Assembly: GCA_024998815.1 (NCBI GenBank)
Contig: JACEUQ010000002.1
Coordinates: 1,316,501 to 1,380,500, forward strand
Direction: 5' to 3'
Source: Opitutus sp.
GTDB lineage: Bacteria > Verrucomicrobiota > Verrucomicrobiia > Opitutales > Opitutaceae
DNA length: 64,000 bases
This document shows, piece by piece, positions 10,750 to 61,735 of the stretch. Each line of letters opens with the position of its first letter. Within the stretch, counting starts at the first letter, position 1. The translations under genes were made by a program, and so were the position numbers. Under the pieces are notes generated by a model. The model made no database searches. It worked only from the letters and a program-made list of their open reading frames with translations, and was not told where the DNA came from.

Positions 10750-10788
10750 ATCGTTCTCGTTCTCTTACTCGTTCTCGTTCTCTTTTCG
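10750..10788. repeat. Hexamer-phased pyrimidine repeat (single arm)
   Basis: Between folP and folB lies a run of six-base words in phase (TCGTTC and TCTTAC variants), all pyrimidine-rich. It is one arm of the hexamer hairpin family found complete at 13141, 35587, 42233, 43454 and 44481; no purine arm follows here. Confidence 0.75.
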
Positions 10789-10797
10789 CTGCACACA

Positions 10798-11187
10798 ATG
10801 ACCGGCCGCATCACCCTCTCCACCATGGTATTTTACGGTTACCACGGCGACCTGCCTGAGGAAAAAACCCTCGGCCAACGCTTCGTGATCGATCTGGTGC
10901 TCACGCTCGACATCGCGGCGGCCGCCGCAACCGACGACCTGCAAAAAACCGTCGATTACACCCAAGTTTACCGCATCTGTCGCGAGACGGTCGAAAAGGA
11001 CCGCTTCAAGCTCATCGAGGCGTTGGCCAACCGGGTGATCGACCGAATTCTCGCCGCCTGCCCGATCGTGGACCAAGTGGACATTGTGATTAAAAAGCCC
11101 TCGGTTCCCATCGCGGGCATCCTCGACCATGTCGCCGTCGAAACCAGCAAATCGCGTGCAGACAGCCTATCTCGGACTGGGCAGTAA
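10798..11187 (+). CDS. folB: Dihydroneopterin aldolase
   Basis: A 129-residue FolB: cleaves dihydroneopterin to hydroxymethyl-dihydropterin and glycolaldehyde. The N-terminal FYGYHGDLPEEKTLGQRF carries the conserved Tyr/His-Gly and Glu, and VDYTQVYR and the C-terminal IKKPSVPI (catalytic Lys region) match the family. Its last 59 bases overlap the start of folK-pabB if that gene begins at 11129 (32 bases if it begins at GTG 11156), a longer overlap than usual. Confidence 0.93.
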   Translation: MTGRITLSTMVFYGYHGDLPEEKTLGQRFVIDLVLTLDIAAAAATDDLQKTVDYTQVYRICRETVEKDRFKLIEALANRVIDRILAACPIVDQVDIVIKKPSVPIAGILDHVAVETSKSRADSLSRTGQ

Positions 11188-13129
11188 TCTCGGCGACCGC
11201 CACGCGCACCTTGCCAACGCGCTCGGCCGCCTAGCCGCCGCGCCCGAGGTGCGCATCGCCCGCGTATCGTCCGTTTATGAGACGACGGCCCTGTGTCTGC
11301 CCGGACAGGCTGCGCAGCCCGATTACCTCAACCTCGTGGTGGAGCTGGAGACAACTCTGGAGCCGCACGGGTTACTCGATCTCTGTTTGGCAATCGAAGA
11401 ACAACTCGGACGCGTCCGACGCGAACGCTGGGGTGCGCGCACCATTGACCTCGACGTGCTGCTTTATGGCGCCACGGAGCTTTGCGCCGACGAGCGCCTG
11501 ACGCTCCCGCACCCCCGCTTATGCGAACGCGCCTTCGTACTCGCGCCGCTGGGGGAGCTTGCGCCCGAGCTACGGGTGAGGGGAAAAACGGTATCCGCAC
11601 ACCTGGCACGCGCCGACGCCACCGGCATCGCGGTACGACCCGAGTGGGCGTTGAGTCCGCCGATCCTGCTGGAAGAGGTGAAATTGCCGGGTGCGCCGCA
11701 CGAGTTTTTCGCCCAAGTGGAAAGCATTGATCACGCCTTTTTCTTGGACAGCGGCCGCAGCACGGGCGGGCTTGGGGCGTATTCGTTTATCGGGTTCGCC
11801 CCCTTTTTTATTTACCGCGCCCAAGAAGGCGCCACGGCCCCGCTGAACGAGCTGCGCGAAGTCCTCAAAAAGTATTCCCGCCCAGCGAGGAAAACTAACA
11901 CAACGGGGTATTTTGTAGCTGGGGGCGGGGCTGTAGCTGCGGCTGGATCCGAAGAGGCGAAAGTCGCGCCTATGTTGCCCTTCACCGGCGGGGCGGTGGG
12001 TTTTCTCAGTTACGAACTGTGCGCCCAACTAGAGAAGATTAGCCGCCACCGCCCTGATGACCTGCCGGCGGTGCCCGACTGCGAATTCGGGTTTTACGAC
12101 GGCATCATCGCCCACGAACACGCCACGGACCGCACGTGGCTAGTCGCCAGCCCCGTCCACACTTCGACTGCCTCCTCTATCCTCGCCCGCCTGCGCGCCG
12201 CAATTGAATCGCAGCCAAGTCCCCCATCACAGCCCGAGCCCAAGTGTCACCTATTAGGTGACACTCACGACGACACGGCTGCGGCGCGACCCCCTACAAC
12301 AGCGCCCTCTTTGCCGGTGGCGAATTTCGACTTCGCCGGCTACACGGCCGCCATCGGCCGCATAAAGGCCTACATCGCCTCCGGGGACGTTTATCAGGTT
12401 AACCTGACCCAGCGCTTTGCCACGCCGCTGCCTTGCCCGCCCTACGCGCTTTACCAGCGCCTGCGCGAACGCAGTCCCGCCCCGTTCGCCGCCTACCTGT
12501 CGTTTGGCCCCGTCCAGGTGGTGAGCAGTTCACCCGAACGTTTTCTCACCGTGCGCGGCCGCCACGTTGAAACCCGGCCGATCAAGGGCACTCGCCCGCG
12601 CTCCGCCAATCCGGTCGAAGACGCCCGCCTCGCCGCCGAGCTGCTCGCCAGCGAAAAGGACCGGGCCGAACTTCTCATGATCGTCGACTTGGAGCGCAAC
12701 GATCTCGGCCGCGTCTGCGCCTACGGCTCGGTGCAGGTTGAAAAACTCTGGCAACTCGAGTCGCACCCCACCGTTCACCACCTCGTCGCCACCGTGTCCG
12801 GCACCTTGCGGCCCGAGATCGACGTGATCGACTGCGTGGCCGCCTGCTTCCCCGGCGGCTCGATTACCGGAGCACCGAAAATCCGCGCCATGGAGATCAT
12901 CGACGAACTCGAACCGCACCGCCGACACCTTTACACCGGGGCGATCGGCTACCTCGGCTTCGACGGCAACGCCGACCTCAACATCGCCATTCGCACCCTC
13001 ACCTGCGTGGGAGGCCAAGCGTATTACCATGTTGGTGGGGGAATTGTATGGGATTCAAACCCCAGCGCCGAATACCAGGAAACTCTCGATAAGGGCCGCG
13101 CCATGCACGAGGCTCTGACCCAAGTTTAA
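11129..13129 (+). CDS. Fusion protein: HPPK (FolK) joined to aminodeoxychorismate synthase component I (PabB)
   Basis: A 666-residue bifunctional folate enzyme. Residues 1-170 are 6-hydroxymethyl-7,8-dihydropterin pyrophosphokinase: YLGLGSNLGDR, RWGARTIDLDVLLYG and PHPRLCERAFVLAPL. Residues 175-666 are a chorismate-binding enzyme: SSSPERFL, RPIKGTRPR, DLERNDLGRV, VSGTL, GGSITGAPKIRAME. The Lys in PIKGT is the PabB mark (TrpE has PIAGT), so this half should make aminodeoxychorismate, the pABA precursor. Two low-complexity linkers are inserted in the PabB half (about 250-280 and 365-390), the second containing the 21-bp palindrome. No pabA-like amidotransferase is in the window. Start ATG 11129 or GTG 11156. 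Confidence 0.93.
   Translation: MSPSKPANRVQTAYLGLGSNLGDRHAHLANALGRLAAAPEVRIARVSSVYETTALCLPGQAAQPDYLNLVVELETTLEPHGLLDLCLAIEEQLGRVRRERWGARTIDLDVLLYGATELCADERLTLPHPRLCERAFVLAPLGELAPELRVRGKTVSAHLARADATGIAVRPEWALSPPILLEEVKLPGAPHEFFAQVESIDHAFFLDSGRSTGGLGAYSFIGFAPFFIYRAQEGATAPLNELREVLKKYSRPARKTNTTGYFVAGGGAVAAAGSEEAKVAPMLPFTGGAVGFLSYELCAQLEKISRHRPDDLPAVPDCEFGFYDGIIAHEHATDRTWLVASPVHTSTASSILARLRAAIESQPSPPSQPEPKCHLLGDTHDDTAAARPPTTAPSLPVANFDFAGYTAAIGRIKAYIASGDVYQVNLTQRFATPLPCPPYALYQRLRERSPAPFAAYLSFGPVQVVSSSPERFLTVRGRHVETRPIKGTRPRSANPVEDARLAAELLASEKDRAELLMIVDLERNDLGRVCAYGSVQVEKLWQLESHPTVHHLVATVSGTLRPEIDVIDCVAACFPGGSITGAPKIRAMEIIDELEPHRRHLYTGAIGYLGFDGNADLNIAIRTLTCVGGQAYYHVGGGIVWDSNPSAEYQETLDKGRAMHEALTQV
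12244..12264. repeat. 21-bp palindrome, copy 2 (inside folK-pabB)
   Basis: Identical in sequence to the reverse complement of 3932-3952. It is read in frame as residues 372-378 or so (CHLLGDT) of the fusion protein, in a linker that varies between PabB proteins, so it is tolerated as an in-frame insertion. Confidence 0.85.
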
Positions 13130-13140
13130 CCCTGCTCGCC

Positions 13141-13294
13141 TACCTACTCGTTCTCTTACTCATACTCTTACTCGTTCCGATTCCGCCGCCGATTCCCCGT
13201 CGCCACCCGCTTGTTATCCCGCCGCCGTCCTCCGTCATCCCGAAGCAGATAAACTGAGAGAACGAGTAGGAGTAGGAGAACGAGAACGATTTTC
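13141..13294. repeat. Hexamer-phased inverted repeat between folK-pabB and pabC
   Basis: Pyrimidine arm at 13141-13178 (words such as TACTCG and TTCTCT) and purine arm at 13256-13292 (GAGAAC and GAGTAG words) are inversely complementary, separated by about 77 bases of GC-rich sequence. Whole element could fold as a long hairpin in the operon transcript. Confidence 0.8.
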
Positions 13295-13317
13295 CAACCT
13301 GTCCACCGACGCCCCCA

Positions 13318-14142
13318 ATGAACACCTCCCACTACGTCCTACTCGACAACGTGCTGCAGCCCGGGATCGCCGCCCGGGTCCCCGCGCTCAGCGAGGGTTT
13401 CCTCTACGGCCACGGGGTGTTTGAAACGATAAAAGTCCGCGGCGCCCACCCCGCCTTCCTCGCCGACCATCACGCCCGCCTCACCGCCAGCGCCCGCGCC
13501 CTCGACCTGCCCTACGCGCTCGACCTCGGCACCCTGCGCGACCGCCTGCACCGCGTCATTGTGGCCAACCACCTTGCCGACGGCTCGGCCAAGGTCGTGC
13601 TGTTTCATAACGAAACCGCGCCCACCAGCGAACTGATCTGCACGAGCGAAAAAGTATATCCGGCCGACACCTACGCTCGCGGTTTCCGGCTGCGCACGGT
13701 GTTCAGCGGCGAACGCACCGGCACCCTCTCCGAATATAAAACGCTCAACTACCTGGTTAACATCCGCGCCAAACGCGCCGCGATGGCCGCCGGTTTTGAC
13801 GAACCGCTCTTCATCACCCCCGCAGGCATTGTTATCGAAGGGGCCACCACCAACGTCTTTGCGGTGCGCGGCGGAGTCGCACTCACCCCCGCGCTCGCCT
13901 GCGGACCGCTGCCGGGCACCGCCCGCGCCCGCGTGCTCGCCCTGCTCGGGCCCGAGCGCGTCCGCGAGGGCTTTCTCACCCGCACCGAACTCGACCACGC
14001 CGACGAGATTTTCGTGACCAACGCCCTGCTGGGAGTCATGCCGGTGTGCCGCTGCGACGACCGCGCGCTCGACCTCAAGCGCACGCCTTTTACCAGCGCC
14101 TTGAGCGAAGCCTACCACGCCCTCGAAGCCCAATCCTTATGA
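13318..14142 (+). CDS. pabC: Aminodeoxychorismate lyase / class IV aminotransferase
   Basis: A 274-residue PLP enzyme of fold type IV. GFLYGHGVFETIKV is near residue 28, the PLP lysine lies in EYKTLNYL near 142, and GATTNVFAV plus FVTNALLGVMPV complete the family pattern. Position directly after folK-pabB makes 4-amino-4-deoxychorismate lyase (release of pABA and pyruvate) much more likely than a branched-chain or D-amino-acid aminotransferase. Stop overlaps the following lipoprotein start by four bases. Confidence 0.88.
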   Translation: MNTSHYVLLDNVLQPGIAARVPALSEGFLYGHGVFETIKVRGAHPAFLADHHARLTASARALDLPYALDLGTLRDRLHRVIVANHLADGSAKVVLFHNETAPTSELICTSEKVYPADTYARGFRLRTVFSGERTGTLSEYKTLNYLVNIRAKRAAMAAGFDEPLFITPAGIVIEGATTNVFAVRGGVALTPALACGPLPGTARARVLALLGPERVREGFLTRTELDHADEIFVTNALLGVMPVCRCDDRALDLKRTPFTSALSEAYHALEAQSL

Positions 14143-15191: not shown

Positions 15192-15210
15192 GCACGCGGT
15201 TACCGCTGAG

Positions 15211-15270
15211 AGTAGCGCAGACTTCCCGTCTGCTCAGAATCGAAATGCAGGCTAGAAGCCTGCGCTACTC
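15211..15270. repeat. GTAGCGCAGACTT hairpin element, copy 1
   Basis: Two nested inverted repeats: AGTAGCGCAGACTTCC at the left and AAGCCTGCGCTACT at the right, with a second pair (GCAGACTTCCCGTCTGC and GCAGGCTAGAAGCCTGC) inside. Same family at 26838-26895 and 43516-43591. Lies 19 bases after the stop of the binding-protein gene; without a T-run it is not a standard terminator. Confidence 0.85.
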
Positions 15271-15325
15271 TTCGCGGCCTTTTGCGTCTTAGCGTTAAAA
15301 ATTACCCACTCCATCCCCCCGCCCC

Positions 15326-16576
15326 ATGCCCACTCCCGCCGCCGACGCCCGCCCCCGTTTTCTCGTGCTCCTGCGCTCCGCCGTCGCCGATGGCACGCTG
15401 GTCAAACTCACCTTGGGCAAACCCGCGCGCACCCACGCCGATCCGACCTTGCACAACCTCTTTGTGCGTCCGGTCACGCTCAAGGCCGGCCCTCACCTCT
15501 CGTTGCTCTGGCGCCATGCCACCCGCGACATCACCAAAAACCTCCCGCCCGCCGAGGCCCTCGCGCTGCTCGAACCGCTGATCGGCGGGGACTTTCTCGA
15601 CGCCCACCTGTTCACCCCGGCGCAGACCGCCCAGTTTGAAACCCGCCCCGACGGCCGCGCCCGGCTCACGGTTAAAAACGCCGCCAGCGCCCCCGCACCC
15701 GCGCCCGAAACCCACGACCGGGCCAAGGCCCACCTGATCGCCGGCGACGCCCCCTGGTTGCGCGCCCTCGGCGTGACCAACGACCGCGGCCTGCCCCGCG
15801 AAGGCATGGCCCACAAGTTCCGCCAAATCCAAAAATTCACCGAGCTGCTCGCCCAACTCCTCGCCGAAGCCGACCTGCTCCCGCCCGCCTCCGCCTCCGG
15901 CTCTGAGCTCCCAGCTCCTAGCTCACAGCTTCTAGCTCCCAGCTCCTTACGCATCGCTGACATGGGCTGCGGCAAAGGCTACCTGACCTTCGCCTTGGCC
16001 GCGCACCTGGGGGCGCGCGCGGAGGTCACCGGCATCGAATTCCGCCCGGAGTTGGTTAAACTCTGCAACGACTTGGCGCGCGCGCATCAGTTGGCCCCGC
16101 ACCTGCGCTTTGCCGCCGGCGACATCGCCTCCAGTGTTTTGGAAAACCTCGACGTGCTGGTCGCCCTGCACGCCTGCGACACCGCCACCGACGACGCACT
16201 GGCCAAGGGCCTGGCCGCCGGCGCCCGCCTGCTGGTGGTTTCCCCGTGCTGCCAAAAGGAGCTGCGCGCCCAACTCACCGCGCCCGCCGTGCTCGCCGAC
16301 GCGCTGCGCCACGGGATTTTCCAGGAACGCCAGGCTGAGTTCGCCACCGACTCGCTGCGCGCCCTGCTGCTGGAGTGGGCGGGCTACAAAACCAAGGTTT
16401 TTGAGTTCATCGCCACCGAACACACCGCCAAAAACCTCATGATCACGGCGATCAAAACCGGCCGCGCCCGCGGGTCCGATCCTGCGCTGGCCACGCGAAT
16501 CCGCGCCTTTGCCGCCTTTTACGGGATCCGCGAACAGGCCCTCGCTCGTCACCTGGGGTTCAGCCTCACAGGCTAA
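15326..16576 (+). CDS. SAM-dependent methyltransferase
   Basis: A 416-residue protein. The N-terminal 170 residues are a separate domain (begins PTPAADARPRF, contains HKFRQIQKF near 158). The methyltransferase core starts at about residue 210 with IADMGCGKGYLTFALA (motif I), then VTGIEFRPELVKLC (acidic motif II residue) and LVALHACDTATD, followed by VVSPCCQKEL. This pattern is that of the Methyltransf_32/GSTCD-like group, whose substrates are mostly unknown. Residues 190-207 are encoded by a heptamer-phased repeat inserted in the linker before motif I. Confidence 0.83.
   Translation: MPTPAADARPRFLVLLRSAVADGTLVKLTLGKPARTHADPTLHNLFVRPVTLKAGPHLSLLWRHATRDITKNLPPAEALALLEPLIGGDFLDAHLFTPAQTAQFETRPDGRARLTVKNAASAPAPAPETHDRAKAHLIAGDAPWLRALGVTNDRGLPREGMAHKFRQIQKFTELLAQLLAEADLLPPASASGSELPAPSSQLLAPSSLRIADMGCGKGYLTFALAAHLGARAEVTGIEFRPELVKLCNDLARAHQLAPHLRFAAGDIASSVLENLDVLVALHACDTATDDALAKGLAAGARLLVVSPCCQKELRAQLTAPAVLADALRHGIFQERQAEFATDSLRALLLEWAGYKTKVFEFIATEHTAKNLMITAIKTGRARGSDPALATRIRAFAAFYGIREQALARHLGFSLTG
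15900..15950. repeat. Heptamer-phased repeat in frame in the methyltransferase gene
   Basis: Seven or so consecutive seven-base words beginning AGCT (for example AGCTCCC, AGCTTCT) encode a Ser/Leu/Pro-rich stretch ([13 protein letters not shown]). The same word family occurs in frame in metH at 36600-36641. Confidence 0.85.
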
Positions 16577-16683
16577 AAACCGCCGTTCATACCATTTCTC
16601 ATTCATACGTATAAAAAATCGGTAACAGTTCAGGCTCACCGCACCAGCAACCAAGCAGCCAAACATCAAACAACGGAATTCTT

Positions 16684-16771
16684 AACCGCTAATGAACGCT
16701 AAGATACGCTAATTCAGAAGCCCTTTATCCCTGCTTTTTATTAGCGGCCATTAGCGTTCATTAGCGGTAAA
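16684..16771. repeat. Decamer-phased inverted repeat (CGCTAATGAA family)
   Basis: Left arm at 16686-16715 is three ten-base words beginning CGCTAA; right arm at 16740-16770 has three words beginning ATTAGCG, their complement. It lies in the 231-base gap between the convergent methyltransferase and response-regulator genes, where it could also serve as a bidirectional 3' hairpin. Related copies: 25652-25752, 38431-38470 and part of 61650-61690. Confidence 0.85.
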
Positions 16772-16807
16772 CCGGTTCGTTTGTATTTCTTTGAATGCGA
16801 ACTGATA

Positions 16808-18382: not shown

Positions 18383-18519
18383 AGAGGGGCAAAATAAAAG
18401 CTAAGGGCTAAGCTGAACAAGATCGCTGCGATCGGAAAGCGGTAAATTTAAGGGAATTTCACCGAAACGACTAAACCCGCGCCAATTCGGGCCGATATAC
18501 TCTGCACAACCCAAAAACT

Positions 18520-20712: not shown

Positions 20713-20718
20713 GCGCAT

Positions 20719-20967
20719 CCTTGAGCAGCTCACGCTCAAGGCGACTCAGCCCAAGCCCCTTGAGCTCACGCTCAAGGCCACGGGTTCCAGAACGCGAAGA
20801 TCCATCTTGTGGAATCCCTCCGCGTGGCCTCCGCGTAGCCTTGCCTCCACGTAGCCTTGCCTCCGTGTGCCCGTGCCTCCGCGTGGCCTTGCGCGTGAGC
20901 GCAGGGGGCGTTTTTAAACGCCCATAAACGCCCACACCGCTCCCCCCACCGTGAGCAGCTCACGCTC
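20719..20967. repeat. Repeat-rich gap: GAGCTCACGCTCA elements and a 16-mer tandem array
   Basis: The 470-base gap before the chemoreceptor 3' end holds two copies of a CTCACGCTCAAGG element (20726-20786, a third partial one at 20954), also present at 39529-39600. Four tandem 16-base units of the type GCCTCCGCGTAGCCTT lie at 20827-20890, each differing by one to five bases. No credible gene is seen here. Confidence 0.8.
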
Positions 20968-23149: not shown

Positions 23150-23326
23150 AGCTGGAGGGAAGCGGTCGATAGGTAGGAAGTTCGGCAGGGAGGCCGCAGG
23201 ACCAATGAGGTAACCTTCCATATATCGGCAGCCTGCCGGATAACTTGAGGCGTACAGGCAAATTACCTATGCCTGGAAGGCGTTTCAATGGGGCCTATAC
23301 TTATAGCTTAAACGAACGAGGCTATT

Positions 23327-23428
23327 TTTAACGCAAAGCCGCCGAGACGCTAAGTTCGCAAAGGATTACAAACAAATGAGTTCCTTGCGCTTCTTTGCGT
23401 CCTTGCGCCTTTGCGTTAAAGCCTAAAA
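23327..23428. repeat. Octamer-phased inverted repeat (ACGCAAAG family)
   Basis: Left arm: four eight-base words of the type ACGCAAAG and ACGCTAAG (23330-23365). Right arm: complementary TTTGCGT and CTTGCGC words (23390-23427). A second copy is at 53188-53276. It occupies part of the 393-base gap between the chemoreceptor and the cobalamin genes; the rest shows no gene. Confidence 0.85.
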
Positions 23429-23542
23429 TCGGAACGTGTAGGGCCTAACACCTCCGCTTCGAACTCGCCGCCACTTCACCAGCGGGCAACGGGTAATGGC
23501 AGCAGGGACATGCCGTCCTGCCTAGGCCGTCCCCCACCCGCC

Positions 23543-24152: not shown

Positions 24153-24872
24153 TTAAAATTTATCGCCTGTGGCCTGACGTCCACACGGATCTATCACGGT
24201 TAAACTGCCATGCGGAACGGGCAAACACATCGCCTCTGCCCAGCCCAACCCGCGCTCCAGCCCCAGCCACGCACGGATCACCCCGGCATGCGTCACCACC
24301 AAGACCGATGCGCCATCCGCACCGCTCGATCCTGTGGCTAACGTGCCCAAAATCTCCCCACGCACCGCCGCCACCCGCGCCCACAACTGCGCGCCGCTTT
24401 CGCCGCCGGGCGGAGCCAGCGACCACGAATCCAGCGCCCACGCTTCGCTCTCCGGACTGCGAAAACTGTCCCACGTGCAGTTCTCCCACGCGCCGAAATT
24501 GAGCTCCTGCAGCCGTGCATCCGTGGGCACGCCAGAGTCCGAAGTGGCATGGGCGTCGCGCCCATGATCCGAGATCGGCGTGGCATGGGCGTCCCGCCCA
24601 TGATCCGGGATCGGCGTGGCATGGGCGGCTCGCCCATGATCCTCAACCCCACGGGCGGGACGCCCGTGCCACTCCCCGATCAGCGCCACCGCCAGCCGTT
24701 GGCAGCGCGCCGCCGGACTGCTCCACACCGCCCCAAAACGCACGCCCGCCAGCCCAGCGCGGATCACCGCCACCTCGTCGGCAAAACTCCCCGCCAGCGC
24801 CACATCGGTGCGCCCGTAACAAAGCCCCTCCGCTCCCGCCAACCGGGTATGCCTGAGCAAAATCACACTCAT
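24153..24872 (-). CDS. cobC: Alpha-ribazole phosphatase-like histidine phosphatase with repeat insertion
   Basis: Histidine-phosphatase family enzyme expected to remove the 5'-phosphate in nucleotide-loop assembly. Start ATG 24872 (MSVILLRHTR) gives 239 residues, with four bases overlapping cobS. Catalytic elements: LLRHT (His nucleophile), SSPAARC (Arg), LNFGAWE (Glu) and VVTHAGV (second His). Residues about 66-109 are a repeat-coded insertion (units HGRDAHAT) between the second and third elements, absent from the family. The active-site residues remain intact, so the enzyme may still work. Confidence 0.88.
   Translation of the reverse strand: MSVILLRHTRLAGAEGLCYGRTDVALAGSFADEVAVIRAGLAGVRFGAVWSSPAARCQRLAVALIGEWHGRPARGVEDHGRAAHATPIPDHGRDAHATPISDHGRDAHATSDSGVPTDARLQELNFGAWENCTWDSFRSPESEAWALDSWSLAPPGGESGAQLWARVAAVRGEILGTLATGSSGADGASVLVVTHAGVIRAWLGLERGLGWAEAMCLPVPHGSLTVIDPCGRQATGDKF
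24546..24677. repeat. GGCATGGGCGTCCCGCCCATG element cluster inside cobC
   Basis: Three or four copies of a short palindromic unit (TGGCATGGGCG and CGCCCATGATC arms) in tandem, closed by an inverted copy (CGGGCGGGACGCCCGTGCC). The frame stays open through it. The same unit forms the 3' end of btuF at 30838-30953. Confidence 0.85.
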
Positions 24873-25651: not shown

Positions 25652-25752
25652 TTTAGCCGCGAATGGCCGCCAATGGACGTAAACAATCTCGTCCCAACCT
25701 CGCCCATTCAGTGTTCGGATTAGTGTCCATTAGTGCTCATCAGTGGTTAAAA
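25652..25752. repeat. Decamer-phased inverted repeat between cobT and cobS
   Basis: Left arm words CGCGAATGGC and CGCCAATGGA (25656-25680). Right arm words beginning ATTAGTG or ATCAGTG (25722-25748). Same family as 16684-16771. It sits inside the cobalamin operon, in the 157-base gap. Confidence 0.8.
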
Positions 25753-26837: not shown

Positions 26838-26895
26838 AGTAGCGCAGACTTCCAGTCTGCTCCGATTTAAAATGCAGGCTAGAAGCCTGCGCTAC
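26838..26895. repeat. GTAGCGCAGACTT hairpin element, copy 2
   Basis: Fills almost the whole gap between cobT and cobU. Its last bases (GCGCTAC) contain, on the minus strand, the TAG that ends cobU (26892-26894). Same structure as 15211-15270. Confidence 0.88.
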
Positions 26896-30818: not shown

Positions 30819-31838
30819 TCAGCGAAGCATCTGCGCCTGAAGTGGCATGGGCGTCCCGCCCATGGGATTGCTTGCCCGACGTGGCATGGGCGTCCCGCCC
30901 ATGTCGGCGCTCGACTTCGACCCCATGGGCGGGACGCCCATGCCACTTCCATTCACCGTAAACGCCTCGGGGTGAAGCGCGCGCGCCAACTGCTCGTAAC
31001 CATCGATGCGGCGGTGGCTCACGCAGCTGAGTTGATACGACTCGACCCGCACCGCCCGCCCCTCACGCACAGCAGCCAGGTAGGCGTAGGGCGGCAGTTT
31101 TTTAAACACCGCCAGCGCCGCCGACAGGTCGGGGCCGTCGAGCACCACGGCGTCGATTGGCCAGGTGAGCATTTTTTCGCTCGGCGGCGGTGCATGGCCG
31201 TGCAATCCGCCTAGAGTCGCGCCGAGATTGATGGCACCCGCGTAATTGCACAGATCCTGAAACGTGGTGCCGTCTCCCGCCATGACGCCATAAGTCGAAG
31301 GCGCGATCACACGTTTGGGGGTGACGCCGGCGAGCGCGGTTTTGAGGCGCTGAACGCGGGCTTGGCCCTCGGCGATGACGGCCTCGGCGCGTTTTTCGGC
31401 GGCCGGGCCGAGTTCTCGGGCGAGGCGGCGGAGGTTGGCAAAGGCGTCGTCGAGGGTCGCGTAACGATCAAAAATCAAGACCGGCACCCCGGCGCGCTTG
31501 AGCTGGGTGACGAGTTCGGTGCGGCTGTAATCGGCGCAAAGGACGAGGGTGGGCCGGTAACGAAGAATCGATTCGGCATCGCCGGCCGGAGGCAGATGCG
31601 GAAACGCCGCCGCCTGAGCGGCAACGGCGGAGTAGTTGGGATTAACCGCGAGTTCGCTCAGTGCCGCCACCTGCGACGGCTCGGCCAAGGCGAGCAGCAA
31701 CTCATCGGTGCCGACCGTCTGGGAAACGACGCGGGGGGGGGCGGACGGAACCTGGGCGCGCAAAACGCCCAGCGCCAAAAAGGCGCTGAGCGAATACAAT
31801 ATATAGCCGCGTATTAATATCATCAGCCTAAGCGGCAT
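30819..31838 (-). CDS. btuF: Cobalamin-type ABC transporter substrate-binding protein with repeat-derived tail
   Basis: A 339-residue periplasmic binding protein with an N-terminal signal helix (residues 5-28). Class III binding-protein fold: VVSQTVGTDELLLALAEPSQV at the start of the first lobe, PTLVLCADYSRTELV, VPVLIFDRYATLDDAF, and IDAVVLDG in the second lobe. The last 45 or so residues (GMGVPPMG, MGGTPMP units) come from the GGCATGGGCG repeat and are not part of the fold. The start shares one base with the btuB stop (TGATG). Confidence 0.86.
   Translation of the reverse strand: MPLRLMILIRGYILYSLSAFLALGVLRAQVPSAPPRVVSQTVGTDELLLALAEPSQVAALSELAVNPNYSAVAAQAAAFPHLPPAGDAESILRYRPTLVLCADYSRTELVTQLKRAGVPVLIFDRYATLDDAFANLRRLARELGPAAEKRAEAVIAEGQARVQRLKTALAGVTPKRVIAPSTYGVMAGDGTTFQDLCNYAGAINLGATLGGLHGHAPPPSEKMLTWPIDAVVLDGPDLSAALAVFKKLPPYAYLAAVREGRAVRVESYQLSCVSHRRIDGYEQLARALHPEAFTVNGSGMGVPPMGSKSSADMGGTPMPRRASNPMGGTPMPLQAQMLR
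30838..30953. repeat. GGCATGGGCGTCCCGCCCATG element cluster at the btuF 3' end
   Basis: Two direct copies (GTGGCATGGGCGTCCCGCC) and one inverted copy (CCCATGGGCGGGACGCCC) in about 115 bases, read in frame to give MGGTPMP-type peptide repeats at the BtuF C-terminus. Same family as 24546-24677. Confidence 0.88.
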
Positions 31839-35586: not shown

Positions 35587-35677
35587 CTCTTTCTCGTTCC
35601 TCTTAATCGTTCTCGTTCTCTCTTTCCGAAAGTCAGCCGGAAGAAAGAGAAAGATTAAGATAAAGAGGAAAGATAAC
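35587..35677. repeat. Hexamer-phased inverted repeat between the two metH genes
   Basis: Pyrimidine arm at 35587-35627 (CTCGTTCCTC, ATCGTTCTCG) and purine arm at 35641-35675 (AGAAAGAGAAAG, ATTAAGATAAAG) form a long potential hairpin in the 104-base spacer. Same family as 13141, 42233, 43454 and 44481. Confidence 0.88.
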
Positions 35678-35689: not shown

Positions 35690-38395
35690 GTGACCCAATC
35701 CGCCGCCTCCTCCTTCCTCGTCGTTGGTGAACGCACCAACATCACCGGCTCGCCCAAGTTCGCCAAGGCCCTCAAGGCCGGCGACTGGGACGCCTGCCTC
35801 GCCATCGCCAAACAACAGGTCGAATCCGGCGCCAACATCATCGACATCAACGTCGACGAGGCGCTCATCGAGGGCGAAACCACCATGGTCAAGTTCCTCA
35901 ACTTGATCGCCGCCGAGCCCGACATCACCCGCGTGCCGGTCATGATCGACTCCTCCAAGTGGTCCGTCCTAGAAGCGGGCCTGCAATGCCTCCAGGGCAA
36001 AGGCATCGTCAATTCCATCTCGCTCAAGGACGGCGAAACCGAGTTCCTGCGCCGCGCCCACCGGCTCATGCGCTACGGCGCCGCCGCCGTGGTGATGGCC
36101 TTCGATGAACAAGGCCAGGCCGCCACCCGCGACGAAAAAGTCCGCATCTGCACCCGCGCCTACCGGCTACTCGTCGACACCCTCGGCTTCCCGCCCGAGG
36201 ACATCATTTTTGACCCCAACATCCTCACCGTCGCCACCGGCATCGAGGAGCACAATAATTACGCGGTCGATTTCATTGAGGCCACGCGGATCATCAAAGC
36301 GACCCTGCCCTACGCCAAAGTTTCCGGCGGTCTTTCCAACGTCTCCTTCAGCTTCCGCGGCAACAATCCGGTGCGCGAAGCCATCCACACCGTGTTCCTC
36401 TACCACGCCATCAAGGCGGGCATGGACATGGCGATCGTCAACGCCGGCATGTTGGGCAACTACGACGAGATCGAGCCCGAGCTGCGTCAGCTCTGCGAGG
36501 ACGTCATCCTCAATCGCCACCCCGACGCCACCGAAAAGCTGATTGTTAAAGCCGACGAAATCAAAGCCCATGAAACGGCTGCCAAAGCGTCGCCTTCCGA
36601 GCTCTCAGCTCTTAGCTCCCAGCTCTCAGCTGCCAGCGCGTGGCGCAATCTCTCCGTCGAGGAGAGATTGAGCCACGCGCTGGTCAAAGGCATCGACACC
36701 TTTGTTGAGCAAGACACCGAGGAGTGCCGCCAAAAATATCCACGTCCCCTCGACATCATCGAAGGCCCGCTCATGGACGGCATGCGCGTGGTCGGCGACC
36801 TGTTCGGCGCCGGCAAAATGTTTCTCCCCCAAGTCGTGAAAAGCGCCCGCGTGATGAAGCGCTCGGTCGCCTACCTCACGCCCTTCATGGAAGCCGAAAA
36901 AGCCCGCGCCGCCGCCGCCGGCGAGGCCACCCGCGCCCAGGGCAAATTCCTCATCGCGACCGTCAAGGGCGACGTTCACGACATCGGCAAAAATATCGTC
37001 GGCGTGGTGCTGGCTTGTAACAACTACGAGGTCGTCGATCTCGGCGTGATGGTGTCGTGCGACAAGATTTTGGCCAAAGCCAAGGAGATCGGCGCCGACG
37101 TGATCGGCCTGTCCGGCCTGATCACCCCGTCGCTCGACGAGATGGTGCACGTCGCCAAGGAAATGAAACGTCTGGGTTTTACGGTTCCGCTTCTCGTCGG
37201 TGGCGCGACCACCTCGCCCGCGCACACCGCGGTCAAAGTCGCCCCCGAATACCCGCACGGCGTTGTGCACGTGCTCGACGCCTCACGTGTGGTCAACGTG
37301 GTCAGCTCGCTGCTCTCGCCCACGCAAAAACCCGCCTTCCTCGCCGAGGTCGTCGCCAAGCAGGAAAAGTCGCGCGAGGAATTCGCCGCGCGCCGCAACA
37401 AACGCCCGCTACTCTCGCTCGATCAGGCGCGCGCCCGCGCTCCGCAGTTCCACTGGGCGACCACCGACCTGCCCAAACCAGCGTTCCTCGGTACCCAAGT
37501 TTACCACGACGCCAGCGTAAAAGAGCTGCTCGAAAAGGAGTTCATCGACTGGGGCCCATTCTTTAGCGCGTGGGAGCTACATGGGCGTTACCCCGAGATC
37601 CTCACCGACGAAGTCGTCGGCGAAGAGGCGACCAAGCTGATGGCGGACGCGCAGGAGATGTTCGCGCGCATCATTCGCGAAAACCGCTTTCAGCCCAAGG
37701 CAGTCCAGACCTTCTGGTCGGCCAACTCGGTCGGCGACTCCGTCGAGATCTACACCGACGAGACGCGTACCCAGGTTTTGCACACGTTCCACTTCCTGCG
37801 CCAGCAGCTGGAAAAGCCCGCCGACCAGTTCAACCACTGCCTCGCCGACTACATTGCGCCCAAGAGCAGCGGACGCGCCGATTACCTCGGCAGTTTTGCT
37901 GTCACGGCGGGCGACGGCGTGGAGAAATTCTCCCACGAATTCAAAGCCGCCGGCGACGACTACAACGCGATCATGGTGCAGGCGCTCGGCGACCGCATAG
38001 CCGAGGCGATGGCGGAGTTTTTCCACAAAAAGACCCGCGACCTGTGCGGCTACGGCCTCACCGAAAACCTGAGCGCCTACGACATCATCCGCGAAAAGTA
38101 CCGCAGTATCCGCCCGGCGCCCGGGTATCCAGCCTGCCCCGACCACCGCCACAAGCCGCAGCTCTGGAACCTGGTTCCGGTGGAGAAGGAAATCGGCATC
38201 GGCCTGACGGAGAGTTGCGCGATGTATCCGGCGAGCAGCGTGAGCGGGTTTTATTTCAACCACCCGGAGTCGAAGTATTTCGCTGTGGGCAAGCTCGGCC
38301 GCGACCAGGTGACCGAGTACGCCGGCCGCAGCGGTTGGACACTCGCCGAGTGCGAAAAATGGCTCGGGCCGTACCTCGACTACGATCCGAGCTGA
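35690..38395 (+). CDS. metH: Methionine synthase, folate/cobalamin/activation modules (split MetH, second gene)
   Basis: A 901-residue protein starting at GTG 35690. Pterin-binding module from the start ([32 protein letters not shown]), then cobalamin cap and B12 domain with the ligand His in [14 protein letters not shown] near 429, GLSGLITPS and LLVGGATTS, and the SAM-binding activation domain ([12 protein letters not shown] near 806; [16 protein letters not shown] near 843). Residues about 303-318 are encoded by heptamer-phased repeat in the linker before the cap. Together with 34509-35585 it forms a complete MetH. Confidence 0.94.
36600..36641. repeat. Heptamer-phased repeat in frame in metH
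   Basis: Six words of the AGCTCTC and AGCTCCC type, encoding a Ser/Leu/Ala stretch ([11 protein letters not shown]) in the linker between the pterin and cap domains. Same word family as 15900-15950. Confidence 0.85.
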
Positions 38396-38430: not shown

Positions 38431-38585
38431 CATTTTTTAACCGCTAATGGACGCGAATAGACGCTAATGGCAGCAGGATGGCCGCTTGTTTCATTAGCTC
38501 TGAGGTAGTGCGGTGCTTTAGCCCGCAGGTTTACAACGGATACACTCCTGCAATTGCCGATGCGGGCTAAAGCACCGCACTACTT
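38431..38585. repeat. Decamer arm followed by GTAGTGCGGTGCTTTAGCC hairpin
   Basis: 38433-38470 is one arm of the decamer family (CGCTAATGGA and CGCGAATAGA words). 38505-38585 is a separate long hairpin: GTAGTGCGGTGCTTTAGCC at the left and its exact complement at the right (38562-38585) around a 38-base loop. Together they fill most of the 207 bases between metH and the EamA transporter. Confidence 0.85.
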
Positions 38586-38593
38586 TCGATCTT

Positions 38594-39481: not shown

Positions 39482-39955
39482 CCGCGCCGATCTAATTCCG
39501 ATTCACGTTCAAGTTGCGGCTTAAGGCATCCTTGAGCTCACGCTCAAGGCCACGGGAAGTGTGCCCACGAAGGGTGTGGCCCTGAGCGTGAGCTCAGTGG
39601 TGTTTGCCCAAAGGCAACCGCTCCCCCAATGAACCGACTTCATTAAGAGCCTCTTGAACGCGAATGGATGTAAGTAAGGCCCACATGACTTGATTCTTCT
39701 GTGTATTCCGAGTGTTCCGTGGGCAACCTCTCTGCCACCGCAGCAACTTCGCGAGACTCTGGATCGTCTTCGCGGTCAAATAGTCCGGCTCCATGCATTC
39801 GCGTTTAGCTAGTCGCAAAAATCGCCCTCGGCCAGTTGCAACGGGTCAAGAACTCTATTCATTGCCTCGCCAACACCTACCTTTTTCGTGCGATTTGACC
39901 CTCCAGTCCCCATTGCGCCCGCTCCGCACGCCCCCCGTGCGGGACGCCTCCGCCC
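39482..39955. other. 474-base intergenic stretch with repeats
   Basis: Contains a GAGCTCACGCTCAAGG inverted repeat (39529-39600, related to 20719-20786) and, at 39695-39725, nine-base words of the TCTGTGTAT and TCCGAGTGT type. No credible gene was found. Confidence 0.6.
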
Positions 39956-42185: not shown

Positions 42186-42500
42186 TTTTTTGAAGTAGCG
42201 AGTAGTGAGTAGCGAGTAAAAGAACCCTCCGCCACTCGTTCTCTTACTCCTACTCTTACCCGTTCCTCTTTATCTTAATCGTTCTCCATCCGAATCCCCC
42301 CCCGCCCCACTCACACCGAAAAGACCGTTCACAATCCCGAGAACGAGTAGGCGTAAGAGAACGAGAAAGATTCCAACCCTCCGCCCCTGACAACGTCCAA
42401 CACTCAACATTGAACGCTCAACCTCCAACCAGCCCCAACCAACATCTGCCGCACTCTGGGTTGAACGTTGGATGTTGAATGTTGGACGTTGAACGTTCCT
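42186..42500. repeat. Composite repeat region: GTAGCGA heptamers, hexamer hairpin and GTTGAAC heptamer hairpin
   Basis: The 327-base gap is almost wholly repeat. 42190-42218: heptamers of GTAGCGA type. 42233-42376: hexamer-phased hairpin (ACTCGT and TCTCTT words; purine arm at 42341-42372). 42388-42497: a second hairpin whose right arm is five exact-phase heptamers (GTTGAAC, GTTGGAT type) and whose left arm has the complementary GTCCAAC type. Three families are juxtaposed without a gene. Confidence 0.88.
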
Positions 42501-43424: not shown

Positions 43425-43453
43425 CTCCAATCGTACTCCGCCCCTATCAATCG

Positions 43454-43670
43454 TTCTCCTACTCTTACTCGTTCTCGACTCCGAAATCCGCAGCAGACGA
43501 AACGGAGTTCATCAAAGTAGCGCAGACTTCCCAGTCTGCTTCGGTGTCGGAACACCCAAGCAACCGAGGCAGACTGGAAGTCTGCGCTACTTTGCGGAGC
43601 TCGGAACGGACGACACGGACGTCGTCCCTCCCCTAAAACACTCAATCCCCAAACGAGAACGATTTTTAAA
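43454..43670. repeat. Hexamer hairpin with a GTAGCGCAGACTT element nested inside
   Basis: Hexamer pyrimidine arm at 43454-43490 (TCGTTCTCC and TACTCTTACTCG) and purine remnant at 43648-43663 (AACGAGAACGA). Between them, at 43516-43591, is a complete copy of the hairpin family seen at 15211 and 26838, with arms GTAGCGCAGACTTCCCAG and its complement. One family appears to have inserted into another. Confidence 0.82.
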
Positions 43671-44480: not shown

Positions 44481-44640
44481 ACTCTTTCTCGTTCCTCTTT
44501 ATCCTAATCGTTCTCCGTCCGAATCCGACTGCCTACAGCCAAATCCGAGATCCCGACTCCAATCCCGAGAACGAGAAAGATTAAGAGAAAGAGAACGATT
44601 CCAATCCTCCTACTCCGACCTACTCGCTACTTCCCACGCC
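44481..44640. repeat. Hexamer-phased inverted repeat
   Basis: Pyrimidine arm at 44481-44518 (TCTTTCTCGTTCC, CTAATCGTTCTCC) and purine arm at 44567-44606 (CGAGAACGAGAAAG, AGAGAAAGAGAACG), with a loop that shares TCCGAATCC and AATCCCGAGAACG with the copy at 42233-42376. It fills the gap before the second CFA-type gene. Confidence 0.85.
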
Positions 44641-52819: not shown

Positions 52820-53299
52820 CAATCGCGCGGCGCGGCCAAGAGACGCTTCGAACTGCAATAAAGCCGAACGGAAGGGCGGCCAGCAGCTCAAGTGGCCACA
52901 TTTTCAGATAAAGATAAAACCAAAGGGATATCATGTTCATTTTTTGCCGAACTTTAATGCTCATCGATGAACGCGCTTGGCGCGGTTCATGCGGCTCGAA
53001 GCATGAACCGTGACAAGCGTGGTTATTCGCTGTAGCGCCTGGTTCGGCTGCATTGGATTCTGATTTATTGCGTGAAGTATAGGTGAAGCCTACTTGGTTT
53101 TCGGTTCTGAGTTCCGAATATTTACTTCAAACACCTATATGGAATCATAATCGAGTCCTTATACTCTCAAGTAACCAAACCGAGTCTTTAACGCAAAGTC
53201 GCAGAGGCGCAAAGAAAGTACTCTCTCAAAACGAGTTATCTCATACTTCGCGCCTTAGCGTCCTTGCGTTAAAAGGCCTGAATAGCTGTGTAATGGGTA
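52820..53299. other. 480-base gap between IS21 and the small membrane-protein gene
   Basis: Contains a short hairpin at 52992-53014 (CGGTTCATGC with GCATGAACCG) and, at 53188-53276, an octamer-phased inverted repeat (ACGCAAAG words on the left; CTTGCGTT on the right) of the family at 23327. Base composition is lower in GC than the surrounding DNA. No gene is supported. Confidence 0.7.
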
Positions 53300-55044: not shown

Positions 55045-55058
55045 GGGGGGGGGCGGGC

Positions 55059-56267: not shown

Positions 56268-56280
56268 GACGAGTGGGTGT

Positions 56281-56919: not shown

Positions 56920-56924
56920 TGGGC

Positions 56925-59478: not shown

Positions 59479-59481
59479 CGC

Positions 59482-60300
59482 TTAGAAGTTCGCGAGGTAG
59501 ACATACACGGTTGTCGTCACGGCGTTACCTCGATAAATCACCGGACCCAAGGTTTGATTTTGATTATTAAACGCTCGGCCGTTCATCAGTGAAGGTGAAT
59601 TTAGTTTTCGCGCTAAATCATAGGCAACTGTTAAGGGAACTCCTTCTAAAATCAGGAAAGCACATCGACCGGCTGGTAGCAAGTTCACCCCATCAAGCCG
59701 AAAGTTGATCCCACCAGCGGTGTTGACTGTTGTAGCGAGGTTGAATTCTGCTGCCGTGACGTTCGCACATTCTATGCGACTGCTGTCGCCGAAACCGTCC
59801 GTTTTAGTGTAGTTTCCGGCGGGGAGAATATCTACTTTATATTCTCCTGTTGCGACATCGTAACGCACAGGTGGCCTCACTCGGGTTTTCTCAATAGTTA
59901 TTCCTAACGGACTTCGATAATAATCGTCCATACGCCTATCTTCATTTTTCATGCTCATAAACACGTTATCTAAACCTAAAAGGGCGTTTAAGTTACTTAG
60001 TCTTGCAGCATTATTGGCCCCACCCAAACGCCCATCTAAAAGTCCGTTTGATACTTGATTCATGTTGGTTATCCCCTCGGTCAGTGGCAAAGTGCCGCCC
60101 AGTTTAGACGCTGCATCGCCTGCAATATTGGACAAATTCCTGATATCTGCCGCCGCTGAATTTATCCGAGCGTTGGACAAAGCCTTGGAGGTTAATGGTA
60201 CAAAGACCCCAACCAAGAGGGCGATGATCGTCACCACCACCAAGATTTCGATGAGCGTAAAGGCATGCTTTTTTTTGTTTCTAAATTTAGGTGTTTTCAT
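59482..60300 (-). CDS. Pseudopilin paralogue 4 (Ala at cleavage position)
   Basis: A 272-residue pseudopilin with leader KKKHA then FTLIEILVVVTIIALL. The residue before the cleavage point is Ala rather than Gly. Glu5 is present. It shares the operon's paralogue blocks: LGGTLPLTEG (about 74), a SRIECA segment, INFRLDGVNLLPAGRCAFLI and the C-terminal TVYVYLANF. Less similar to the other three than they are to each other. Immediately upstream of the PilM/N-like gene (three-base gap). Confidence 0.87.
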   Translation of the reverse strand: MKTPKFRNKKKHAFTLIEILVVVTIIALLVGVFVPLTSKALSNARINSAAADIRNLSNIAGDAASKLGGTLPLTEGITNMNQVSNGLLDGRLGGANNAARLSNLNALLGLDNVFMSMKNEDRRMDDYYRSPLGITIEKTRVRPPVRYDVATGEYKVDILPAGNYTKTDGFGDSSRIECANVTAAEFNLATTVNTAGGINFRLDGVNLLPAGRCAFLILEGVPLTVAYDLARKLNSPSLMNGRAFNNQNQTLGPVIYRGNAVTTTVYVYLANF

Positions 60301-60384
60301 GAATTGAGCTTTAATGGGAGGTGATTGATTTGAGTAAAGAACGTTGAAAAATAACTGGTTTTTGGTGTTAAAATACCGCTTACG

Positions 60385-60429
60385 AATTTAAATAAAGTAA
60401 CGAAGGCTTTCTAAGACCGAGGGCCTTCG
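60385..60429 (-). terminator. Possible terminator after pseudopilin paralogue 3
   Basis: On the minus strand a stem (CGAAGGC with GCCTTCG and inner pairs) is followed by TTACTTTATTT, 18 bases after the stop of the gene at 60447. Might attenuate transcription between two pseudopilin genes. Confidence 0.45.
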
Positions 60430-60446
60430 TCGGATAAACGAGTGGC

Positions 60447-61253
60447 TTAGATTACAGCGAGGAAGACGTACACCGTGTTCACACCACCCACGGGCGCGGT
60501 ATAGATCACGCGACCACGGGTTTGAGCCACAGGGACGGAGGGGTCCACATCATCCATCAACGACATGCTGTTTAACTCAATGGCCAGTGAACGGGCGTCG
60601 TTAATAGGCGTTTTGGGGTAGACGACGAAGGCTACCCTGCCGGTGGGCAAGTTGGTGGTGCCGTCGAGCGGGAAGTTGATGCCGGCCACCGGACCGTTCG
60701 CCAAGACGAACGTGGTGTTCACCTTAGCACACTCCATACGGGTGCTGGTGGCTTGGCTTACAGTGGCGGTCCATTTAACAACGTTAACGGGCCTGGTAAC
60801 TGACCAAGTGCCGGTGTTGGAGTCCCACGTGATGCGACCCGAGGTGGCTGGCCAAGGGAGGGTGGTGCCAGGAGCAAATTTTGAGGTGAATAAACCGTCC
60901 AGCACGGGCGGATTCATACTCAGTAACATCTGATCCAAGCGGGCACCACCATTAAAAATGGCCGCGTTTTCAGTTAGATTTCGATCGCCGGCTGTAGCGA
61001 AGTCCGTAGGATGCCAGCCGATATCGTCCGTGGCCCCCTCGGTCAGCGGCAAGGAGGCGCCATTGCGTGCGGCACCTTCGAGGACGGCGGTACGGGCGGA
61101 ATTGATCTCCGCCACGGCGGAGTTGACACGGGCGCGGGACTGCGCTTTGGAAACGGCCGGGATCAGAATGGAGGTGAGGATACCGATGATGACGAGAACC
61201 GTCAGGCTTTCGATCAGCGTGAAAACTCGGGCGTTTTTTTGGTGTGTTTTCAA
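60447..61253 (-). CDS. Pseudopilin paralogue 3 (Val at cleavage position)
   Basis: A 268-residue pseudopilin. The leader reads KNARV then FTLIESLTVLVIIGILTSI: Val replaces the nearly invariant Gly before the cleavage point, so processing by prepilin peptidase is doubtful. Otherwise very like the gene at 61838: NSARTAVLEGAARNGASLPL, ARLDQMLLSMNPPVLDGLFT, RMECAKV, SLMDDVDP and the ending TVYVFLAVI. The similarity extends into the 3' flank, a sign of recent duplication or gene conversion. Confidence 0.88.
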   Translation of the reverse strand: MKTHQKNARVFTLIESLTVLVIIGILTSILIPAVSKAQSRARVNSAVAEINSARTAVLEGAARNGASLPLTEGATDDIGWHPTDFATAGDRNLTENAAIFNGGARLDQMLLSMNPPVLDGLFTSKFAPGTTLPWPATSGRITWDSNTGTWSVTRPVNVVKWTATVSQATSTRMECAKVNTTFVLANGPVAGINFPLDGTTNLPTGRVAFVVYPKTPINDARSLAIELNSMSLMDDVDPSVPVAQTRGRVIYTAPVGGVNTVYVFLAVI

Positions 61254-61310
61254 GTTTAGCGCCCTGGTGGGGAGAAAGTGTAAAAAGGGAAAGGCCGTGT
61301 GGCGGCGCGT

Positions 61311-61364
61311 TTAGACCTGAGCGAAGACTACGTACAGAGCCATAACTGCGCCATGGGGTGCACC
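61311..61364 (-). pseudogene. Remnant of a fifth pseudopilin gene (3' end only)
   Basis: On the minus strand the last 16 codons of a pseudopilin are readable: APHGAVMALYVVFAQV and TAA at 61311-61313. They align with the end of the gene at 62723 (GGVVDVYVFLAQF). The downstream bases GGCGGCGCGTTTAG also match its 3' flank. The upstream side is cut exactly where the CTAG-ended element begins (61365). Confidence 0.78.
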
Positions 61365-61558
61365 CTAGTGGGCTGTAACATTTAAAGTGTCGGATAAAAC
61401 CAACGCAGTTTAGCCGCGAAAGAACGCAAGGAGAGCAAAGAACAAGCACTTTTTTTCTATGCGTTCTTTGCGTTCTTTCGCGGCTAAAAGGGTTTGTTGA
61501 ATGTTGTTGATTCTAAGAAGGCTCAGGATGCGACAAGTTAAATGTTAATGCCTACTAG
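61365..61558. mobile_element. MITE-like element A with CTAG ends
   Basis: About 194 bases, non-coding, with 26-bp imperfect terminal inverted repeats: left begins CTAGTGGGCTGTAACATTT, right end is the complement of CTAGTAGGCATTAACATTT. Inside is a hairpin of ten-base words (CGCGAAAGAA and CGCAAGGAGA; complement GCGTTCTTT at 61466-61480). Shares its right-hand CTAG with element B. Confidence 0.8.
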
Positions 61559-61735
61559 TGGGCTGTAACATTTAAAGTGTCGGATAAAACCAACGCAGTT
61601 TAGCCGCGAAAGAACGCAAGGAGGGCAAAGAACAAGCCCTCTTTTTTCTCTGCGTTCTTTCTCGGCTAATTAGCGGTCATTAGTGGTTAAAAATCTGATT
61701 CCGTATCCAACACTTTGAATGTTACTGCCTACTAG
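61555..61735. mobile_element. MITE-like element B with CTAG ends
   Basis: About 181 bases. Left 75 bases nearly identical to those of element A (61365-61440); right terminus complement begins CTAGTAGGCAGTAACATTC and matches the solo copy at 38594-38619. The interior has a deleted hairpin and, at 61665-61690, decamer words (TTAGCGGTCATTAGTGG). Confidence 0.8.

Follow-up and report, generated by a model that had tools for sequence, protein, structure and literature searches.

The 64,000-nucleotide (nt) stretch of Opitutus sp. analysed here, called the window below (G000:C2:1316501-1380500, part of a 4.24-Mb genome, G000), carries short arrays in which a word of 6 to 10 nt is repeated in strict phase, as a single arm or as two inverted arms, some of them in or beside metH, the gene of a B12-dependent methionine synthase. 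A sequence-only reading had described them as hairpins whose arms are built of words of 6, 7, 8 or 10 nt, next to a separate array of 16-nt units. The arrays are indeed found at the places named (Table 1), both 7-nt copies taken as coding lie inside open reading frames (ORFs), and the 16-nt array, which sits in an inverted repeat of a different type, is a repeat of another kind. On the other hand, 9-nt words had been overlooked, and the supposed hairpins at 10750 and 38431 are both single arms. That the families are built alike, each with its own word length, is confirmed, and in the 8-, 9- and 10-nt families the common construction amounts to one design: a 7-nt core CRCNRAN followed by a spacer of 1, 2 or 3 nt, and led by TTAAC or TTAGC.

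Inverted repeats and their periodicity both exceed chance, as had been supposed. The comparisons were made with a sister species, G012, which together with G007 is the closest congener by MetH; the 94 genomes searched included twelve species of the genus besides that of the window, and the best identity of the window MetH among the matches listed was 71-72%, to Verrucomicrobiia, Verrucomicrobia and Opitutae records. Scanning 1.26 Mb of the own genome and 1.12 Mb of G012 gave 231 and 118 inverted repeats, against 1 and 4 in one dinucleotide shuffle. Arms were periodic (p<1e-4) in 72 of the 231 and 46 of the 118, compared with 2.2% and 0.7% of column-shuffled arms, and the best arm periods were 6, 7, 8, 9 and 10.

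In some families a single spacer is used. With at most three mismatches, three-word matches to the core CACTAAT were found 76 times at spacer 3 and never at 0-2 or 4-5, and the 43 matches to CACGGAA (spacers 0-5) were all at spacer 2; word length is thus constant within these families, which the sequence-only reading had raised as a question. Other cores are distributed over spacers: CGCAAAG 22 times at spacer 1, 13 at 2 and 4 at 3, CACTGAT 19 at 2 and 45 at 3, CACAGAT 33 at 2 and 8 at 3, CGCTAAT once at 1 and 44 times at 3; shuffles gave no specific-core match at spacers 1-3. For exact triplets of the generic CRCNRAN the counts at spacers 1, 2 and 3 were 12, 64 and 59 (2, 1 and 0 shuffled), and at spacers 0 and 4-8 they were 0, 1, 6, 0, 1 and 3, near the shuffles. 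The last core letter follows the spacer: among 144 distinct arms picked by hand from ten of the carrier genomes surveyed below, G occurs 27, 92 and 4 times at spacers 1, 2 and 3, and T 1, 41 and 68 times.

The core is also better conserved than the spacer. Mean column information in arms of the de novo list was, for core and spacer respectively, 1.37 and 0.38 bits (60 arms of 10-nt words), 1.40 and 0.74 (28 CACGGAA/CACAGAT arms), 1.10 and 0.55 (30 CGCAAAG+2 arms) and 1.73 and 0.55 (nine 8-nt arms); in pattern-picked arms such values are partly built in, because the arms were chosen by their fit to the core. The number of words was counted from a TTAAC or TTAGC anchor, requiring two exact words and applying a one-mismatch rule (95 more anchors with a single exact word were left out): of 116 multi-word arms, 102 consist of exactly three words, one of two, and 13 of four to six, which we estimate to be about the chance expectation under this rule. 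The shuffle control held 18 one-word cases and one with three words. A word number fixed at three argues against slippage, and so bears on the idea that a single mutational generator, slippage combined with intra-strand template switching, builds phased words and their inverted copies from any seed. Words are homogenised within arms: in the 144 arms, agreement inside an arm is higher than between different arms from one genome (0.85 vs 0.46 at core position 7; for the first and second word 0.64 vs 0.43 at position 4, 0.85 vs 0.59 at position 2, and 0.94 vs 0.73 at position 5). A phage contig with four words where five orthologues have three, the variable word number of 6- and 7-nt arrays, and a 6-nt hairpin shared by two species with different words in both arms also speak for such a generator. 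However, beside the fixed number, the conserved core with its freer spacer, arms that are in most sets no copies of each other, and copies lying in frames with empty sites make it a distinctly unlikely explanation. Of the one generating process put forward from the sequence, the shared design stands for the 8-10-nt class; copying from arm to arm is unsupported, and the 6- and 7-nt families are a class apart.

It had also been noted that the opposite arm is the complement of the first in the same register. This is seen, but permutation tests indicate mostly an effect of the same words being present in both arms. Convergent arm pairs were collected by pattern, not by complementarity, in a first test allowing at most five mismatches (some arms being present in two registers), and then in a cleaned set with at most three mismatches and one register per arm (26 pairs of 10-nt, 16 of CACGGAA/CACAGAT and 8 of 8-nt words; the 4 pairs of CGCAAAG+2 were too few). 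In the first test the spacers agreed with those of their own partner and of another locus at 0.378 vs 0.364 (10 nt, 63 pairs), 0.600 vs 0.598 (CGCAAAG+2, 20 pairs) and 0.450 vs 0.436 (8 nt, 10 pairs); only CACGGAA/CACAGAT spacers favoured their own partner (0.615 vs 0.445, 37 pairs, z 4.0), which fell to 0.609 vs 0.513 (z 1.5) in the cleaned set, where 10-nt and 8-nt spacers gave 0.468 vs 0.441 (z 0.7) and 0.500 vs 0.436 (z 0.6). Cores of 10 nt words fit their own partner slightly better (0.885 vs 0.824, z 4.0 cleaned; z 4.1 in the first test), cores of 8-nt words fit it less well than strangers (z -2.7, cleaned), and whole 6- and 7-nt arms, in the four sets with enough pairs, score with their own partner as with permuted ones (z -0.1, -1.5, 1.0 and -2.2 for 17, 7, 6 and 11 pairs). 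As the own partner fits no better than a stranger in most sets, complementarity comes mainly from the same words being inverted: the arms are not templated complements in most sets tested, and the word is kept more than the stem.

These results bear directly on the idea that the hairpins act as stem-loops, in RNA or in DNA (as terminators, attenuators or mRNA stabilisers), the words being a by-product. The inverted layout with short loops would suit it, as would the location: 61 of 62 three-word loci lie between genes (simple ORF caller; one stretch with a masked run was partly left out), many of them between co-directional genes, and the slightly better fit of 10-nt cores to their own partner goes in the same direction. 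Yet gene orientation at the units (44 co-directional, 9 convergent, 8 divergent, against a background of 441, 139 and 125) displays no preference evident from the counts alone; spacers and whole 6- and 7-nt arms fit strangers equally in most sets, 8-nt cores fit their own partner worse, and 85 of 98 arms in viral contigs have no partner by a strict test. A search against Rfam gave no match in the window, and none at the repeats. We therefore hold a stem-loop function to be very improbable. A group II intron match (RF00029) occurs elsewhere in the genome, at L084 9707-9797.

Arms of the same family within 200 nt of each other are mostly convergent (63, 38, 20 and 10 in four 8-10-nt sets, against 11, 15, 2 and 0 divergent). 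At 400-5000 nt, in counts that include overlapping registers, 10-nt arms show no convergent excess (60 +-, 49 -+, 89 ++, 27 --), and CACGGAA/CACAGAT arms gave 66 +-, 40 -+, 33 ++ and 61 --; no parent element was recognised among the listed pairs when transposase genes were sought between convergent arms.

Many copies are not bare. They occupy several unrelated frames resembling miniature inverted-repeat transposable elements (MITEs), with empty sites in G012. Of the pairs of TIR1 (TIR, terminal inverted repeat) less than 600 nt apart, 10 of 12 contain 10-nt words; all six TIR4 pairs contain 8-nt words, two of them in a segment duplicated in the genome; of the 13 TIR3 pairs, all but three contain words of 9 nt or of 10 nt and/or GTAG-type repeats. 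Having TIRs and no coding capacity, the TIR1, TIR3 and TIR4 frames fit MITE criteria, a target duplication being seen among them at a TIR4 site only (TA, against the empty site) and none being established for TIR1 and TIR3; the CACAGAT element at G000:C2:1460713 has a GTTAAA duplication. As regards an autonomous parent with shared ends, four TIR1/TIR2 pairs lying 1.5-5.3 kb apart were noted. The comparison of empty sites between relatives, suggested from the sequence, gave precise ones for the MITE-like insertion 16585-16805 and for the 6-nt insertion 42237-42374, and none for a bare three-word unit without a frame. Likewise, the view that the families do not descend from one sequence has to be tempered, since within the genus the 8-10-nt families also spread by descent inside these frames; a single known transposase-mobilised element, named as the case that could refute the shared construction, does not explain them.

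Could the words rather be sites of a host chromosomal protein, a regulator or a nucleoid factor, their mobility being incidental? Three hairpins common to both species display conservation in place: one change in 126 nt of core against 31 in 348 nt of spacer, loop and frame (p=7e-4; spacers 3/28, loops 7/50, 45-nt frames 21/270), and p=0.005, still on three loci, when the farther flanks (38/695) are added. The genome-specific vocabulary would also agree with such a protein. But turnover between the species is high: among the 50 word loci of 182 comparable with G012 (single loose matches inside genes included), 27 exceed their G012 counterpart by 40 nt or more, 9 of them facing a site of at most 20 nt in G012, and 16 show a length difference of no more than 10 nt. 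The units found at mosaic phage gene junctions and the lack of a visible orientation preference argue in the same sense, and we judge this explanation unlikely.

The units are not confined to the genus. The anchored three-word pattern occurs in 54 of 145 Verrucomicrobiota genomes, in 34 of 119 genomes from the phylum to which G247 (recorded as Planctomycetota) belongs, and in 11 of 50 further genomes drawn from 80 MetH matches, some of these 50 being Verrucomicrobia; among the carriers outside the Verrucomicrobia are records of Nitrosomonadales, Hydrogenophilaceae, Lewinella, Segetibacter and Bacteroidetes. The reversed pattern had no match in any of the three surveys (145, 119 and 50 genomes), and across carriers the word vocabulary is genome-specific. 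In viral contigs the spacer-2 pattern was found in at least 120 stretches, with 80 loci among the matches listed and no strand or gene-position preference seen; by the strict test 13 of 98 arms have a convergent partner and 3 a same-orientation partner, a few hairpins entering the count more than once, through both of their arms or through near-identical contigs. One phage junction has a constant left flank; to its right stand the unit and either of two sequences, or else a third one without unit (L284, L318, L345, L404 vs L397, L398, L402 vs L396, L399-L401, L403), and by hand translation the unit lengthens the reading frame in both unit-bearing versions. At another, L392 has four words and L297, L301, L310, L393 and L394 have three, so that exactly one 9-nt word was gained or lost.

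As to the enzyme, Y1 tyrosine transposases (PF01797) match in 53 of 54 Verrucomicrobiota carriers of the pattern and in 49 of 91 non-carriers (hand-counted), and the DDE family PF01609 in 37 of 54 (hand-counted) and 39 of 91. A DDE_Tnp_1 transposase of the own genome has 18 equal-score places among the matches listed, and at 17 of these a frame of 534 codons is open. The Y1 counts, the single units and inverted dimers, so like repetitive extragenic palindromic (REP) sequences, and one Y1 gene (L255) placed between word arms in inverted orientation would agree with three-word units being the ends recognised by Y1 transposases, in the manner of TIRtrons or of REP-associated tyrosine transposases (RAYTs). 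At the opposite, for 15 of the genus's 16 Y1 loci word arms do not flank both sides, and inverted repeats of other types surround several of them, the carriers G078 and G012 have no Y1 match, and no clear excess of proximity is visible by eye (5 Y1 genes within 3 kb of arms, about 3.6 expected, among the places listed), so that recognition of the units by Y1 enzymes appears to us rather doubtful. The Y1 match L259 (G000:C2:276756) lies between GTGGCATGGGCG repeats, the same repeat as the GTGGCATGGGCGTCCCGCCCATG copies of the window; judged from its position, it fits a putative RAYT for that repeat family, not for the word family.

Table 1. Word arrays and neighbouring features of the window (positions are those of the window)
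Feature	Position	Strand	Remarks
Single 6-nt word array (TCNTNC words)	10751-10780	+	Just 5' of an ATG; G012 has a 7-nt array in the same spot
Inverted pair, 6-nt word arrays	arms 13148-13177, 13260-13289	.	Not in G012
GTAG-tagged REP dimer	15203-15277
7-nt AGCTNNN array in ORF 15326-16576	15906-15947	.	Diverged version in G012
221-nt MITE-like insertion, TIR ATACCATTT, with 10-nt (7+3) three-word pair	16585-16805	.	Exact empty site in G012
Three-word arm, spacer 3, CGCTAAT words	16687-16713	+
Three-word arm, spacer 3, inverted mate of the preceding arm	16740-16766	-
16-nt tandem array	20827-20892	+	Within GAGCTCACGCTC-type inverted repeat 20755-20909
TIR4-family MITE-like element, about 153 nt, with 8-nt (7+1) pair	23296-23447		Arms 23327-23354, 23393-23420
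GTGGCATGGGCGTCCCGCCCATG inverted repeats	24544-24675; 30839-30949
Inverted pair, 10-nt three-word units	25652-25751		Arms 25652-25684, 25719-25751
GTAG-tagged REP dimer	26839-26895
Inverted pair, 6-nt word arrays	35588-35673		Between two co-directional ORFs, upstream of metH; G012 has a 10-nt three-word inverted pair here instead (L131 5376-5449)
metH ORF, B12-dependent methionine synthase	35690-38395		Pfam domains
7-nt AGCTNNN array inside the metH ORF	36600-36634
Inverted repeat in the metH ORF beside the AGCTC array	36633-36683		23 nt, 96% complementary
Lone 10-nt three-word arm	38436-38468	+	Adjoins GTAG-REP dimer 38496-38592
9-nt words	39697-39721; 61409-61635
138-nt insertion with inverted 6-nt arrays	42237-42374		Arms 42236-42265, 42338-42370; exact empty site in G012; direct duplication AACCCTCCGCC, about 11-14 nt
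Inverted pair, 7-nt GTTGRAY arrays	42391-42491
6-nt array	43451-43474	+	GTAG-REP dimer 43505-43602 between array and its short opposite arm, splitting the 43454 pair; 43514-43608 not in G012
Inverted pair, 6-nt arrays	44482-44598		G012 has a 7-nt CTACTCAC-type array instead
Inverted pair, 8-nt three-word units	53187-53273
Two adjoining MITE-like frames, TIR TAGTRGGCNGTAACATTTAAAGTGTCGGAT, with 9-nt and 10-nt word arms	61366-61557; 61556-61734

Cyanobacterial short tandemly repeated repetitive (STRR) sequences are heptanucleotide tandem repeats. The 6- and 7-nt families are best read as a second class, probably tandem arrays of the STRR type that also occur as inverted pairs: their word number goes from 3 or 4 up to 13 and more, no common frame was seen, and the 7-nt families of the window, with contiguous 7-nt units in variable number, agree with STRR-type criteria. 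Most AGCTC arrays lie in genes (18 of 25 loci, simple ORF caller). Two clean 6-nt insertions, 42237-42374 in the window and L100:2061-2194, have direct duplications of about 11-14 nt ending at the junction, with scores that are reached at 2% and 4% of random positions in a free search window; they alone, among the 15 insertions examined, score below 5% of random positions. Shorter, imperfect duplications accompany the GTAG-REP dimer 43514-43608 and a GAGCTC-type repeat (L087), at 14% of random positions each, and a compound 513-nt insertion holding 6-nt arrays shows no direct duplication. The hairpin G000:C1:240195-240261 is common to G012, and its 6-nt words differ in both arms. For these 6- and 7-nt families the generator discussed above may apply. 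Apart from the word arrays, repeated palindromes with a loop of 3 nt and AAAGTGTCACCT at the end were seen at L083 16976-17024, 18816-18910 and 19340-19388 and at L095 1722-1756 and 3577-3611.

Altogether, we favour the reading that the 8-, 9- and 10-nt families form one superfamily of dispersed units, similar to REPs and to their inverted dimers (REPINs) and recognised through their words, and we judge its chances to be even. The unit consists of TTAA, a C and three CRCNRAN heptamers split by 1-3 freer bases, and it occurs alone or as an inverted dimer. Its words might be read as direct sites by a DNA-binding protein, most likely a transposase or recombinase or a host factor borrowed by one, on double-stranded or single-stranded DNA; if the specificity of this protein differs between genomes, the words of a genome would drift together and the layout of three would persist. 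The copies may then multiply as REPs and REPINs do, or be carried along by MITEs, and be retained mostly in intergenic DNA. A wider proposal, tentative and in our opinion somewhat unlikely, is that of a mobile signal common to several phyla, in which an enzyme system would read three direct heptamers on an elastic lattice of 8-10 nt, the word specificity diversifying under a constant layout, and in which the units would serve as seams for phage gene swaps.

Several observations weigh against recognition through the words. The Y1 and DDE searches identified no mobilising enzyme: Y1 genes are not clearly nearer to arms than their density predicts, the two carriers named above have no match, and the co-occurrence counts take no account of phylogeny, genome size or general transposon load. 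No bare unit was caught moving in the comparisons with G012, and the constraint on the core rests on three loci, a small sample. Finally, 10-nt cores, and in the first test CACGGAA/CACAGAT spacers, favour their own partner; core positions 4 and 7 of CACGGAA/CACAGAT are conserved no better than the spacer (0.78 vs 0.74), to which the partly built-in column values have to be added.

How do these units compare with known repeats? REPs and REPINs tagged with GTAG or CGTC, mobilised with RAYT transposases, are tagged palindromes in the available text of PMC3733652, and according to the same text they share with the present units the small size, the dispersed intergenic location, the occurrence as singles or as inverted dimers some tens of nt apart, and the many sequence families of one layout over a broad phylogenetic range. 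However, the unit here is made of three direct spaced words and is no palindrome, its arms are mostly not selected to pair, its lead is TTAAC or TTAGC instead of a GTAG or CGTC tag, and, as regards a dedicated RAYT, one Y1 locus in 16 is flanked by words on both sides, with co-occurrence and no clear excess of proximity. In TIRtrons (TIRYT), as that source presents them, long inverted repeats surround Y1 transposase genes and some also form dispersed families, unlike the 15 remaining Y1 loci of the genus. MITEs are likened to the frames by their TIRs, lack of coding capacity, insertion beside genes and internal repeats, and BrickBuilt, a bacterial MITE, has an internal 23-nt minisatellite (both in the available text of PMC4596501); here, by contrast, units of three 8-10-nt words occur inside several unrelated frames, and alone in viral contigs. 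The heptanucleotide repeats TAACTGA (PMC4679880) and GGGNATC (PMC4692102) are described as having many copies per genome near gene ends. The 7-nt families resemble these and the STRR sequences, which as far as so described are tandem, spacer-free and variable in number, at the opposite of the 8-10-nt class with its spacers and three words. In the literature searched, with word strings in full text but most subscription journals and bioRxiv outside, no description of the three-word unit was found. In organisation the copies thus resemble REPs and REPINs, and the frames are MITEs, yet the unit itself is no palindrome, and no tandem array of heptamers either.

Should the unit be a recognition signal, many repeats of the metagenome era would receive one definition, in the form of a pattern whose reverse has no match in three surveys, and one could look concretely for the protein that reads it. 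An inverted repeat in such a genome is not necessarily a hairpin: what is kept here is the word, more than the stem.

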